From Williamsia limnetica (lineage in GTDB: Bacteria > Actinomycetota > Actinomycetes > Mycobacteriales > Mycobacteriaceae), in NCBI RefSeq assembly GCF_003217475.1, contig NZ_QJSP01000008.1:186001-250000 (forward strand): a stretch of DNA of 64,000 nt, written 5' to 3'. A program made the position numbers and the translations under genes. Positions within the stretch are counted from its first letter, which is position 1; every line of letters starts with the position of its first letter. The notes under the pieces are model-generated. The model was given only the letters and a program-made list of their open reading frames with translations, had not been told where the DNA came from and did not search any database. This document shows positions 2,925 through 14,075 of the stretch, piece by piece.

Positions 2925-3890
2925 ATGTCCACGTTCTCGCTCCGCTCGATGCTTCGGATCTGCGCCGCCGCGGTGCTCATCACGGCCACGGTCTCCATGG
3001 TCGGTGCTCCCGCGGCGAACGCCGCCGCCGTCTGCCGCGGTGCCGGACAGGCCCCCGTCCTGGTCGCACGGGTGCCCGGCGCGGCGCTCGAGGGCCTGAC
3101 GGTCGATCCGGCCGGCCGGCTCTACACCACCGACATCATCACGGGGCGCCTCTACCGGGTGGAGCGTCCCGGCGCACCGGCGGTGCCCGTAGCGACCGTC
3201 CCCGGCGGCAGCGGCGGCGGCGCCTTGGCATGGACTCCGGACGGCACGTTGCTGGTCGGCTACGGCGCCGATCCCCGGGTTCTCGTCGGCGACGTCGTGC
3301 GCGCCGGGTCGATCGCGAAGTTCAATCCGTCGACCGGGCGTCTGACGCCTTTCGTCGGCGGACTCAGTGCCGCCAACGGTCTGGCAGTCGCGGCGAACGG
3401 CATCACCTACGCCACCAACGACTTCGGATCTCTGGTGGGCCGCGTGTTCCCCAACGGTGCGGTACAGGCGGACTGGGCGCGGCTGCCGAGCGCCAACGGC
3501 GCCGCACTCGGCAACGACGACGCCTACCTGTACGTGTCACGCACGTTCGTCAATCCCGGCGTCAGTCGTATCCCGGTACGCAATCCGGGAGCGCCGCAAT
3601 CACTGATCACGTTCGGCGGCGGTGACGTGATCGCCGCCGCCGACGGCCTGACACTGGACTCCCGTGACCGCCCGATCGTGCCCACGGACATCAGCGGAGA
3701 GATCCTCCGCGTCGATGGTCCAGGGCGGTTCTGCTCTCTCGCAAGCGGATTGCCCGCGTCCAGCGTGGTGACCTACGGACGAGGCGAAGCCGGCTTCTCG
3801 GCAGGCCGGTTGTTCCGGGCAGGCTTCGACGGCAACATCTACGAGATTCCCGGCGGCTTCGATCCGAATGCCCGCACCGCAGCACCCTGA
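2925..3890 (+). CDS. Secreted beta-propeller protein, SMP-30/gluconolactonase-like
   Basis: 321 residues. An N-terminal Sec signal peptide has positive charge in MSTFSLRSMLRI, a hydrophobic core and a likely cleavage after APAANAAA. The mature part shows repeated propeller-like strands such as LEGLTVDPAGRLYTTDI, ALAWTPDGTLLVGYG and GLAVAANGITYATND, typical of SMP-30/strictosidine-synthase-like folds that bind metal and often hydrolyse lactones. GGGAGG precedes the ATG and a TACGAT hexamer at 2890 is a plausible -10. No catalytic assignment can be made. It stands alone between the aldehyde dehydrogenase gene and a convergent small gene. Confidence 0.78.
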   Translation: MSTFSLRSMLRICAAAVLITATVSMVGAPAANAAAVCRGAGQAPVLVARVPGAALEGLTVDPAGRLYTTDIITGRLYRVERPGAPAVPVATVPGGSGGGALAWTPDGTLLVGYGADPRVLVGDVVRAGSIAKFNPSTGRLTPFVGGLSAANGLAVAANGITYATNDFGSLVGRVFPNGAVQADWARLPSANGAALGNDDAYLYVSRTFVNPGVSRIPVRNPGAPQSLITFGGGDVIAAADGLTLDSRDRPIVPTDISGEILRVDGPGRFCSLASGLPASSVVTYGRGEAGFSAGRLFRAGFDGNIYEIPGGFDPNARTAAP

Positions 3891-8422: not shown

Positions 8423-9829
8423 TTACGGCGATATCTTCAGCATCCGCCCGACGGTGGCTTGCCAGAGGGCTCCGCCGGGCCCGATGGTGCCGGTGAGCTG
8501 CAGCGGCTCGTCCAACGGCGCATTTCCGACCTGGTGGAACGCCTTGCGTTCACCGGTCTCGAAGTCGATGGCGGTGAAATAGACCGGACCGAGCTGCTGG
8601 ATGCCCCCGCCTGGCGGCAACGGTCCGTAGGCCAATGCGTAGATCAGTCCGTCGGCGCGCGAGAGCTTGGGCAGTGTCGCCACCCGATCTGCGCTCTCCC
8701 ACACCCGCTTGCAACCGGTCTCCGACACGTCGATCCGCGTCATCCCGCCGGTGAACGCCGCCGCCGGTGGATCACTCGGACCGGACGTCGCGAACGGTGG
8801 ATACCCGAATCCGTACGTGCTCGGGATGACTATCGAGTTGCCCCACGCCATCGGGGAGTTCTCGGTGCCCTGCCCAGATGTTTCGAACGCGGGGGTCGAG
8901 CAGACCGTCGAGCCGTCGTCGCTGCGGTAGACGATGAGATTCGGTCGATCGGCGTTGTCCACGATGGCGACCCAGTCGTCTCCATGGGGACCGAAATAGG
9001 TCGGGGTGGTCCCTGAGCCAGGGGCCAACTGCCCCGGACGCCGCGCATCTCCGGCATCGTAGGCTGCGCGCCAGACCGTGGTCGGAGTACCTGAGTCATC
9101 GGCCTGCATCTCGTACAGGGCCCGGCTCGTCAGTATCGACGCACCGCCCGGCCGCATACTCAGTCCGTTGGTGAGCTTCTCACCGATGGGCAACCGGGTC
9201 GCTCCGATGTGGCCACCGGAGTCGACGGTGCCGATCACGCCGTTCGTCGTCGCGAACCAGATGCGGCCTTGATGGTCCGGTGCGAGTCCTGTGATCGCGT
9301 CGCCGGCCGGGATGTGGTCACGGACGTCGATGCGCTGGTCGACGAAGAGCTGCCTGCGGCCGTCGGGGTTCGTACGGTGCGCAACCTTCAAGATCGCGCC
9401 CGACCCGTCCGCCACCACCACGCGGTCGCGGTTGTCGAGGTAGCCGTAGACCCCGCCGAGCAATCCGCCTTTGGTCAGCTGGAGTGAGGCGATCGGCTGG
9501 GCCGTGGCCGGGTCGAAGAGCTGAACGGTGGGAACAGCGACATTGAGCGGGTCGGCGCCGACGTAGCCGGTGCACAGGGCAACAGGCAGCGAGTCACTGC
9601 CGATGAAGGTCGCTGCGCACGCGCCGCCGGGCAGCGACGATGCGGTGAGCTTTCCACCCGCGCCGGGTCCGGGGTGCGGCGTCGAGTCCGTCGACGCCAG
9701 ATCACCGTGGATGAGGGAGGTCCCGGGCGGGCCGACATCAGGGTCCACCGGTGCGGCCGAAGCCGGACTCGCAAGCGATACCGTCACCAGCACCGCAGTC
9801 AGTGCCACCATCCCCCCGACCCATGTCAC
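8423..9829 (-). CDS. Secreted PQQ-like beta-propeller protein
   Basis: 468 residues with a hydrophobic N-terminus, GMVALTAVLVTVSLASPASA, that ends in a plausible signal cleavage site, though it lacks the usual basic residues before the core. The body has propeller blades such as ITGLAPDHQGRIWFATTNG, GVYGYLDNRDRVVVADGSG and DVGPPGTSLIHGDLASTD. It has the look of the PQQ-type quinoprotein-like families of secreted actinobacterial proteins, without recognisable PQQ ligands. The start is a GTG; an ATG at 9811 is an alternative. Its promoter region contains the first copy of the 75-bp palindromic element. Confidence 0.72.
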   Translation of the reverse strand: MTWVGGMVALTAVLVTVSLASPASAAPVDPDVGPPGTSLIHGDLASTDSTPHPGPGAGGKLTASSLPGGACAATFIGSDSLPVALCTGYVGADPLNVAVPTVQLFDPATAQPIASLQLTKGGLLGGVYGYLDNRDRVVVADGSGAILKVAHRTNPDGRRQLFVDQRIDVRDHIPAGDAITGLAPDHQGRIWFATTNGVIGTVDSGGHIGATRLPIGEKLTNGLSMRPGGASILTSRALYEMQADDSGTPTTVWRAAYDAGDARRPGQLAPGSGTTPTYFGPHGDDWVAIVDNADRPNLIVYRSDDGSTVCSTPAFETSGQGTENSPMAWGNSIVIPSTYGFGYPPFATSGPSDPPAAAFTGGMTRIDVSETGCKRVWESADRVATLPKLSRADGLIYALAYGPLPPGGGIQQLGPVYFTAIDFETGERKAFHQVGNAPLDEPLQLTGTIGPGGALWQATVGRMLKISP

Positions 9830-9851
9830 CCAGACATAAAAGCACGGAGCG

Positions 9852-9926
9852 CCCTGAAAATCGGCAGATAGCGGGTCTCCGAGGGCTATTTACCCTCGGC
9901 GGTTGTCTATTTGACAGTTTCCAGGG
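9852..9926. repeat. 75-bp palindromic element, copy 1
   Basis: Begins CCCTGAAAA and ends TTTGACAGTTTCCAGGG, with terminal 20-bp arms that pair imperfectly (15 of 20 positions). An inner hairpin CCGAGGG-7-CCCTCGG occupies the middle. Its right 46 bp (9881-9926) are identical to 10803-10848. It lies between the divergent secreted propeller gene and the AbiEi/DUF559 gene, 12 bp before the latter's ATG. Confidence 0.85.
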
Positions 9927-9938
9927 TCAGTGGGGCCG

Positions 9939-10793
9939 ATGCCCGATGTGATCCGTCTGATCAGCATGGATTCGGGCGTCTATTCGACCAAGGAACTACA
10001 TCGAGGCGGGCTGACCACCTGGCAGATCCGGCGCGAAGTCGACATCGGTTCATTGGTCGCTCTGCGGCACGGCTGGTACGCCACGCCGACGGCCGATCCC
10101 GACGTTGTTTCCGCCGTCCGGGCAGGAGGGGTCCTCGGTTGCGTCGCAGCCTTACGAAAACACGGCCTCTGGGTGCCGCCCGGATACCGACGGGTACACA
10201 TCCGACCCACCCGCCACGGCGAGCTGACCACCCGCCAGGCCTGTCGGACGTTCGGCCCCACGCCTCGAGCGCTCGCCGCAGTCGATCCGGTGCCGATCGC
10301 ATTGCTGTCCGCCGCCAGATGCATGACCGCCGAGCACTGGATCGCGACGTGCGACTCAGTGCTGAACACGGCTGGATTGTCGGTCGCGCAATTGGCTTGT
10401 GAGATGGGCAGACCGCCCAAGCACATCCTCGCCCTGATGGAACGATGCGATCGTAGGTCCCAGTCCGGCACTGAGTCGATAACGCGAACCCGATTGCGAG
10501 CGAACGGCTTCAAGGTCGTGGTCCAACCCCAGATCGCCGGCGTGGGGCACGTGGACCTGCGAGTCGGTCGCCTCCTTCTCGAATGCGACAGTGTCACCCA
10601 CCACACCAGCCTCGAGAACTACCACAACGACCGGCGGCGAGACCGCCGCGCTCTGGTCGACGGATGGCTGACCATGCGCATCACCTACGACGACGTCCTG
10701 TACGGCTGGACGGGTGTGCTGGCCGACATCCGAGCCATCACCCGGACAGATCGCCATCGCACGACACCTTCTGCCCTGAAAACTGTTGAATAG
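9939..10793 (+). CDS. AbiEi-like winged-helix plus DUF559 (endonuclease-fold) protein
   Basis: 284 residues. The N-terminal segment (about 1-65: MDSGVYSTKELHRGGLTTWQ, then GSLVALRHGWYATPTADPD) matches the AbiEi-type antitoxin winged helix. The C-terminal segment (about 200-275) looks like the DUF559/Vsr-like restriction-endonuclease fold: GHVDLRVGRLLLECDS gives an acidic D-x(7)-E-x-D arrangement, followed by HNDRRRDRRALVDGW. Such proteins are common and uncharacterised in actinobacteria; nuclease activity is inferred from the fold. The gene is enclosed by two copies of a 75-bp palindrome, and its last codons (ALKTVE-stop) lie inside the second copy. A GTG at 9930 is an alternative start. No toxin-like partner gene is adjacent. 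Confidence 0.75.
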   Translation: MPDVIRLISMDSGVYSTKELHRGGLTTWQIRREVDIGSLVALRHGWYATPTADPDVVSAVRAGGVLGCVAALRKHGLWVPPGYRRVHIRPTRHGELTTRQACRTFGPTPRALAAVDPVPIALLSAARCMTAEHWIATCDSVLNTAGLSVAQLACEMGRPPKHILALMERCDRRSQSGTESITRTRLRANGFKVVVQPQIAGVGHVDLRVGRLLLECDSVTHHTSLENYHNDRRRDRRALVDGWLTMRITYDDVLYGWTGVLADIRAITRTDRHRTTPSALKTVE

Positions 10794-10848
10794 CCGGGCA
10801 TGGAGGGCTATTTACCCTCGGCGGTTGTCTATTTGACAGTTTCCAGGG
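10774..10848. repeat. 75-bp palindromic element, copy 2, between convergent genes
   Basis: The same length and ends as copy 1. Terminal arms pair at 17 of 20 positions (left CCCTGAAAACTGTTGAATAG). The right 46 bp are identical to copy 1; the left 29 bp have diverged. It overlaps the 3' ends of both flanking genes and supplies their C-terminal codons and stops. As a strong hairpin between converging genes it could also terminate transcription both ways. Confidence 0.85.
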
Positions 10849-11773
10849 CCGTATTGGCACCACACAGAATCACACAGGGCAGCCGGCCGGGTTTGGTCGT
10901 CACCGCGCCCGACAGGATCGGCGCCAGAGCCGCCGCCGTCCCGTGCTCGACCAGGATGCGGAACTCGTCCCACAGCAGATTTCGCGCAGCGATCAGCTCG
11001 TCGTCGGTGACAGTGAGGCTGCCAACTGGGAAGGCGGAGATCGTATCCCAGCAGATCTGACCCAACTGCGTGGCGCCGAGCGAGTCAGCGGCGACACTGT
11101 CGAGGTCCACGGGCACAGGTCTGCCGGCGGCCAGGGCCTGATGCAAGGTGGACGCGCCGACGGGCTCCACTCCACAAATCGTGTGCTCTGGCGCCAGTGC
11201 CGCGGTCAATCCGCCGACCAGTCCTCCGCCCCCGACTGCGACAAGAACCTCGAGCGGCACGCCGAGTTGCTCTCGCAGCTCGAGGCCGATCGTCCCGGCG
11301 CCGGCAACGATGTCAGGTAGGTCGTAGGCGTGAAGCTGCAGTGCCCCGGTCTGTTCCGCAATCGCCGCGGCCGCTTCGGCGCTGAGCGCGTACCGGTCAC
11401 CGATCTGGTGGACATCGGCGCCGAGCGCGTTCAGGCGCGCGACCTTCACCGCCGGAGCAGTGGTCGGCACCACGACGGTGCATCGCAGATCGAGCATCCG
11501 GCACGCCGTCGCGGCACCGATGGCGGCGTTACCGCCAGAGGCGATGACAACACCGGAGCCGGTGAGCCTGCCCTCTTCCTGGGCATGCAGGATCGCGTTC
11601 AGACTGCCGCGGATCTTGAACGATCCACCGAGCTGGAGATATTCGAGCTTGAAAGCGACCGTGACGGGTCCGGACGGCGTCGGAACCTGCGTTTCGAACA
11701 CCGGCGTGGGCCGGATCAGCGAACTGATCCGCCCACGCGCGGCGACGATCTCGTCGAGCGAGGTGGCAGCCAA
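10829..11773 (-). CDS. PLP-dependent threonine/serine dehydratase-like enzyme
   Basis: 314-residue fold-type II PLP enzyme. The PLP lysine is Lys53 in LGGSFKIRGSLNA. SGGNAAIGAATACRM is the substrate loop, and VGGGGLVGGLTAAL binds the PLP phosphate. Length and lack of a C-terminal ACT domain resemble catabolic-type threonine dehydratases or serine/threonine racemase-type enzymes rather than biosynthetic IlvA. It lies 8 bp downstream of asd in a run ask-asd-dehydratase, consistent with use of aspartate-family threonine. The last residues ALETVK-stop are encoded by the palindromic element. Exact substrate is undecided. Confidence 0.85.
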   Translation of the reverse strand: MAATSLDEIVAARGRISSLIRPTPVFETQVPTPSGPVTVAFKLEYLQLGGSFKIRGSLNAILHAQEEGRLTGSGVVIASGGNAAIGAATACRMLDLRCTVVVPTTAPAVKVARLNALGADVHQIGDRYALSAEAAAAIAEQTGALQLHAYDLPDIVAGAGTIGLELREQLGVPLEVLVAVGGGGLVGGLTAALAPEHTICGVEPVGASTLHQALAAGRPVPVDLDSVAADSLGATQLGQICWDTISAFPVGSLTVTDDELIAARNLLWDEFRILVEHGTAAALAPILSGAVTTKPGRLPCVILCGANTALETVK

Positions 11774-11781
11774 GTCGTCGG

Positions 11782-14075
<2,294 letters not shown>

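Follow-up and report, generated by a model that had tools for sequence, protein, structure and literature searches.

It is probable that a nuclease gene of Williamsia limnetica, together with the two 75-bp palindromic elements that enclose it, belongs to a system resembling REP/RAYT, in which an enzyme of the homing-endonuclease type would recognise its own dyad and spread the elements by way of host repair. The gene product is predicted, from its modelled structure, to be a site-specific endonuclease with the Vsr/I-Bth0305I (EDxHD) fold and an AbiEi-like N-terminal reader, and the word probable is meant for this explanation as a whole, spread included. The observations behind it are the architecture of the locus, the dispersal of further copies, the correlation between stem and protein, the gain and loss of elements at chromosomal sites, and the predicted fold.

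Two palindromes around one nuclease gene

The window, the whole stretch of 64,000 nucleotides that was analysed, comes from a genome of 6.35 Mb in 52 contigs (G000). The upstream element, P1, occupies 9852–9926 on the plus strand, with 34-nt arms, a 7-nt loop and the core AGGGCTATTTACCCT; the downstream element, P2, lies at 10774–10848 in the same orientation. Both start with CCCTGAAAA and finish with TTTCCAGGG, and their final 46 bp are the same, so that the two 75-bp copies with identical right portions described in the sequence-only reading are confirmed. That reading had also noted that the left arms still pair with the right arms; a comparison of the 20-base arms by eye gave the same counts, 15 and 17 paired positions in the two copies, and the single-stranded DNA folds of P1 and P2, on both strands, were stronger than those of shuffled sequences (z −2.2 to −4.4). 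An element scanner gave P1 and P2 scores of 50 and 54; nothing else in the window reached 14, and the maximum in eight windows shuffled in 60-base blocks was 5.6. A chance origin of the pair is excluded. P1 and P2 were themselves among the 65 elements used to build the scanner, and independent support for the element comes from the dispersed copies, whose sequences lie outside that building set. A search of Rfam returned no match to the elements within 9000–12000 and one chance-like hit elsewhere.

P1 and P2 enclose one ORF, as had been proposed, the nuclease gene at 9939–10793 on the plus strand (start ATG at 9939 or GTG at 9930), the homologues of which are under purifying selection. Its stop codon, TAG at 10791–10793, lies inside P2, which on the other strand covers the 3' end of the dehydratase ORF; one palindrome thus encodes the ends of both convergent ORFs. 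The left neighbour, a propeller-like protein (8423–9829, minus strand), and the right neighbour, a PLP-dependent (PALP), dehydratase-like enzyme (10829–11773, minus strand), are context outside the unit. The AbiEi-antitoxin-like N-terminal part spans 9981–10451 (plus strand; residues 14–170 of the translation from 9942), and the domain with the Vsr/EDxHD homing-endonuclease fold spans 10455–10763 (plus strand; residues 172–274).

The earlier assignment of the product as an AbiEi-like part joined to a Vsr/DUF559-like domain agrees with several lines of evidence. The protein matches AbiEi models (PADLOC, E 4.8e-5), it scores for REase_MTES_1575 and DUF559, both under the Pfam cut-offs for this single protein, and the homologue family matches MTES_1575, DUF559 and AbiEi. 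The best fold matches of the predicted structure are I-Bth0305I and Vsr. The Vsr-like catalytic fold of the EDxHD enzymes, with conserved acidic residues and a histidine, is thus present in the predicted fold, the invariant residues of this domain being E178, D205, E214, D216 and H221. A PDB sequence profile gave chance hits only, and the protein had no match in NCBIfam or PHROGs.

The AbiEi annotation could also point to a role in toxin-antitoxin or anti-phage systems, with the palindromes either shielding the DNA of the host or regulating a toxic nuclease. Of 32 homologues, 28 do match the PADLOC AbiEi model that is found most often, but the gene is flanked by the propeller-like protein and the PALP enzyme with no AbiEii-like gene beside it, and to our knowledge dispersed cognate palindromes are no part of AbiE systems; this explanation appears very improbable.

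The W. limnetica genome holds four more homologues with 62–71% identity, five paralogues in all, and the gene is patchy, being found in 16 of 249 genomes of the order, this one counted. In G089, G058 and G174 the homologue is broken into neighbouring pieces (L184, L186, L167, L178, L166, L180) and is apparently decaying. Among viral contigs 13 stretches fit a pattern and none was confirmed, and phage records gave no match. A plasmid collection gave four matching records, three from Tsukamurella and one from Actinomyces; of the three plasmid loci examined (H3 not among them), one from Tsukamurella (L262) has matching palindromes on both sides and two (L263, L264) have none.

The elements accompany homologous genes

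Forty distinct homologous loci from Williamsia and Gordonia, with duplicate records removed, were compared. At the threshold used, elements stand on both sides of the gene at 29 loci, on one side at 10 and on neither at 1; an element is upstream at 31 of the 40 and downstream at 37, and only 2 further elements occur in the 184,839 bp of these loci. The paired flanking elements are direct repeats, with the same orientation in 21 of 22 decidable pairs. Beyond this set, 14 further, mostly more distant loci were chosen from 29 (own-genome loci, fragments and seven relatives in family f9 were omitted, and two of those chosen are near relatives). Here 11 of 28 flanks reached a palindrome score of 15, compared with 0 of 78 control stretches, and the palindromes are often of quite different sequence. 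The palindromic element belongs to the nuclease gene. This association has a limit, since the seven f9 members, the weakest relatives, had no such flanking palindromes, except for one 48-nt palindrome at L179.

An alternative is that the elements are operators: a dimeric AbiEi-like repressor would bind P1 and so regulate the promoter of its own gene, and the lone copies would mark its regulon. The upstream element ends 15–73 bp before the matched coding stretch (44 loci, duplicates included), AbiEi-type families are annotated as transcriptional regulators, and a dyad suits a dimer. The downstream copy at 37 of 40 loci speaks against such a role, as do two properties described below, the pairing of the mid-stem and the placement of lone copies, and we regard it as improbable.

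Evidence for a fold

Two alignments were used: A2, of 65 rows, in which 8 elements were entered twice, once per orientation, and A4, of 57 distinct rows. R1 and the scanner were built on A2, and the fold analyses were made on the distinct elements of A4. The 57 distinct gene-flanking elements align ungapped over 75 columns and have 34-base arms, a 7-base loop and the core AGGG-N7-CCCT. The fixed length of 75 is partly by choice, because rows of both alignments were picked for fitting a 75-base register and the scanner detects 75-mers only; small indels occur in some other elements (L013 downstream, L023 upstream).

Over all 34 pairs of the 57 elements, 75.0% of cells are paired, compared with 57.9% after shuffling and at most 47.8% when slid. 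The covariation score is 0.482 against 0.205 in shuffles, and two-sided changes number 403 against 187.8. The mid-stem (columns 21–28 with 48–55) is variable in sequence and nevertheless 61.0% paired, compared with 49.8% in shuffles, none of 500 being as high. Two operator half-sites would not need this pairing. Because relatedness among the sequences inflates the shuffle control, these figures lend support to selection on the fold, as the sequence-only reading had suggested, but are no proof of it.

Stem types track the protein

Clades of the protein tree match stem types by eye: A, CCCTGAAAAC; B, CACCACATTC; B', CACCACGATC; C, CCCTGAGATCGTCC; and D, GGCGATCTTTG. In Mantel tests on 39 loci, distances between the proteins were correlated with those between outer stems (r 0.628, p 0.001) and between mid-stems (r 0.547, p 0.001), and least with those between cores (r 0.276, p 0.005). 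That the outer stem tracks the protein most and the core least suggests that the outer stem provides specificity while the core serves a common step. The coevolution of enzyme and palindrome that characterises REP/RAYT is therefore present here, both in the Mantel tests and in the comparison of stems with tree clades by eye. At one chromosomal site the cassette is of D type in G000, G006 and G007 (L008, L015, L022) and of B' type in G005, G003 and W. muralis (L013, L016, L034), which may reflect either cassette exchange or very fast divergence.

Dispersed lone copies

R1 gave 82 matches in the W. limnetica genome (both strands counted, E ≤ 0.001). At least 42 element places were recognised there, 9 at the five nuclease genes and 33 alone, the total being a lower bound because 150 of 3,158 first-look candidates were scored. 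The proposal that copy number and enrichment near nuclease genes be checked has thus yielded at least 42 copies rather than hundreds. R1 matches occur in all nine of nine Williamsia genomes (E ≤ 0.05). Outside the genus, at E 1e-4, R1 matches 3 of 15 gene-bearing genomes and none of 20 gene-free genomes; its lack of a match in the other 12 gene-bearing genomes may be due to differing stems. In G026, from another family, the nuclease lies beside a different palindrome that has ten further copies of its own (E 2.5e-4 or better); of four other gene-bearing genomes searched with this G026 element, three had no match and the fourth a single 20-base hit.

These distributions bear on the possibility that the elements are nothing more than terminators, or repeats that organise the chromosome, and owe their spread to some other factor, with the nuclease gene bracketed by accident. 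They are strong hairpins, many of them at convergent 3' ends, and such roles have been suggested for REPs (PMC2817692). A terminator, however, requires neither a common core nor a stem that varies with the protein encoded next to it. The palindromes beside several distant homologues have a different sequence, and no R1 match occurs in any of 20 gene-free genomes of the family. An accidental association of this kind seems distinctly unlikely.

Whether lone copies resemble the gene-flanking elements of their own genome depends on the measure. Set against the mean over the gene-flanking elements of other genomes, those of the own genome are closer for 9 of 10 copies of type A, 25 of 35 of B and 24 of 26 of C. 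Set against the single nearest foreign one, they are closer in 5 of 10, 9 of 35 and 15 of 26; given the lower second count, an own-genome effect stands out in no more than a portion of the C-type copies, mainly those of G007. Tests of stem type used 80 lone copies, a non-random sample drawn from genome matches or retrieved stretches, of four types with D absent. In this sample neither type was significantly tied to its gene: 10 of the 39 copies from carriers of an A gene and 7 of the 41 from non-carriers were of A type (Fisher p 0.42), and for C type the counts were 26 of 67 in carriers of a C gene and 2 of 13 in non-carriers (Fisher p 0.13). In G001, which has a C gene, none of 5 sampled lone copies is of C type, and A-type lone copies persist in three genomes that yielded no A-type gene (G005, G006 and G007); the latter are either relics or counter-evidence.

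The placement of lone copies relative to genes also bears on an operator role. Enough flank was available for 79 lone copies, of which 34 were uncallable and left out (raw calls: 26 tandem, 5 divergent, 3 convergent). The 45 callable copies have 24 convergent, 19 tandem and 2 divergent gene neighbours, compared with 75, 182 and 81 among 338 element-free neighbour pairs; raw calls for all 79 give 27 convergent, 45 tandem and 7 divergent. Lone copies avoid divergent promoters, unlike operators.

Two further observations were made at lone elements. A tandem array of 39-bp units adjoins element o96 (L003 1135–1385). At the o88 site (L121 around 3089–3253), occupied by that lone element in G000, G004 has palindromes of unrelated sequence, of the CACCCGAATTTGCG type, and G001 a similar one, perhaps representing a second family.

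Gain and loss of elements and cassettes

A species tree from one 2.4-kb region places the genomes as (G000,(G007,(G004,G006))), then G001, then the rest. At the window site, element, gene and element are present in G000, G001 and G008, the three close relatives G004, G006 and G007 have a single element and no gene, and G002, G003 and G005 have no element. In the three relatives the alignment of the left flank runs to where P1 ends, and that of the right flank begins where P2 begins. The L005 site has the cassette in G000 and G004, one element in G006 and G007, and none in five others, with both flanks aligned. A single element thus replaces the cassette exactly in three relatives at the window site and in two at the L005 site, and alleles with the cassette and with a single element both exist at these sites. 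The search for empty sites among relatives that had been proposed at the outset was therefore fruitful, as single-element and empty sites both occur at the window locus. Neither of the outcomes that the sequence-only reading had named as refuting it, hundreds of copies unenriched near the genes or a locus kept in place by all relatives, was seen.

The cassette at L005 looks like a gain within the window's clade, and those at L006 and L007 are probably gains there too, judging from four outgroups at each site without an element, the left flank alone being aligned. For the window site the trees agree better with an insertion of long standing, inherited vertically and followed by loss of the gene, than with a recent jump. 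Single-element sites were also considered as targets awaiting a gene, but the protein tree and the 2.4-kb species tree make gene loss simpler. In its left 29 bases P1 looks, by eye, more like the single element of G007 than like P2; over the right 46 bases it is identical to P2. The idea of a mobile module raised in the sequence-only reading is supported by cassette sites that differ between species, with the limit that at the window locus itself the history appears to be one of old insertion and loss.

Sites of lone elements are informative as well. At o92a, the outgroups G002, G003 and G008 join both genes directly at a clean junction and G005 differs on one side; G000, G006 and G007 carry the element, accompanied on one side or both by about ten additional bases; in G004, the fourth genome of the window's clade, there is an apparent deletion remnant. 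This is apparently one gain and one loss. At o89, G000 and G004 hold differing C-type elements in the same position. No clear target-site duplication, the mark of insertion by an insertion sequence or MITE, was seen at o87 or o92a, and other junctions are too diverged; the absent-element sites o88, o89, o90 and o96, with diverged junctions, were left out of target inference. Beside lone element o93 (L133 1–3157), G007 and G000 are 98.4% identical up to the element end and 84% beyond it, a step that points to a recent exchange bounded by the element.

Proposed mechanism

In the REP/RAYT-like mechanism that we favour, a homodimer of the AbiEi-Vsr nuclease would recognise the dyad of 75 bp. Clade-specific recognition would come from the outer stems, some 20 bp on either side, and the common AGGG-N7-CCCT core would be the cut site, whether in duplex, cruciform or folded single strand. 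Through host repair of the cut, elements or entire element-gene-element cassettes would be copied to new positions between genes. If the direct repeats recombined, the gene would be deleted and one element left, so that the direct orientation of the flanking copies would explain precise gene loss. For each nuclease the lone elements would be its cognate, non-autonomous population, a relation like that of REPs to RAYTs. We infer the dimer, its binding and cutting, and the repair-based spread. A hydrolytic nuclease by itself neither joins nor transfers strands, which makes host repair the simplest route of spread; no intermediate was seen. I-Bth0305I is said to bind as a dimer to a target nearly 60 bp long (PMC3943268), which fits a long dyad.

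The elements might instead move as single strands by RAYT-like chemistry, with the nuclease cutting hairpins in single-stranded DNA at replication forks rather than acting through break repair. Fold-level covariation and the lack of a clear target-site duplication are compatible with this, but the predicted fold is that of hydrolytic nucleases and extra bases lie next to the o92a element, so it is unlikely.

A fuller version of the favoured mechanism can be put forward only tentatively. Mycobacteriales may have an independent REP-type system in which homodimeric AbiEi-Vsr nucleases recognise stems in a clade-specific manner and cut the core, break repair copies or overwrites elements chromosome-wide, the gene travels as a cassette, and several enzyme-palindrome pairs of differing specificity coexist in one genome. 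If the explanation is true, partnerships between an enzyme and its own population of short palindromes arose more than once, with unrelated chemistry. Part of the uncharacterised actinobacterial AbiEi/DUF559 proteins would gain a candidate function, and natural enzyme-target pairs of differing specificity would be at hand, opening recognition and repeat spread to direct testing.

Comparison with known systems

A search of the open literature, with subscription papers mostly outside it, found no description of this nuclease-palindrome system. Several known proteins share parts of it. Unlike I-Bth0305I, the enzyme described here has an AbiEi-like N-terminal part, no intron was seen, and its supposed target flanks the gene on either side and also occurs dispersed. 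EDxHD homing endonucleases cut a site that their own gene interrupts; here alleles with the cassette and with one element exist, but the trees favour loss of the gene. It differs from Vsr endonuclease and the DUF559/MTES_1575 proteins in its additional AbiEi-like part and its association with palindromes, from the AbiEi antitoxin in being fused to a nuclease with no AbiEii-like gene adjoining, and from TnsA of Tn7 in that no TnsB-like partner adjoins the gene. For the Rpn recombination-promoting nucleases we know of no cognate palindromes. They belong to another family; the likeness is that of a nuclease family reported to mobilise DNA (PMC5350276).

The closest parallel is with the REP/RAYT systems (REPtrons). 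RAYTs are HUH enzymes described as flanked by inverted REPs and coevolving with dispersed REPs (PMC2817692). The systems are alike in that two palindromes flank the gene, cognate copies are dispersed, enzyme and palindrome coevolve, and some orthologous genes keep conserved places. The analogy with a different enzyme, drawn originally from the sequence of the window, is upheld by most of the comparative tests (cognate flanks, stem tracking, dispersed polymorphic copies). A further REP/RAYT trait is that palindrome abundance follows the presence of the enzyme; here R1 matches 0 of 20 gene-free and 3 of 15 gene-bearing genomes outside the genus, and within the genus stem type against gene type gives p 0.42 and 0.13. 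There are also differences. The RAYT is an HUH tyrosine transposase of the IS200/IS605 type, whereas the enzyme here has a predicted Vsr-type nuclease fold; REPs flank their gene as inverted copies and these elements as direct ones (21 of the 22 pairs noted above); REPs carry a GTAG tag, whereas the elements of about 75 bp have their own core and no such tag; and REPs number over 100, against the tens of copies found here. With an enzyme and an orientation unlike those of RAYT, the system works like REP/RAYT but is not a member of it.
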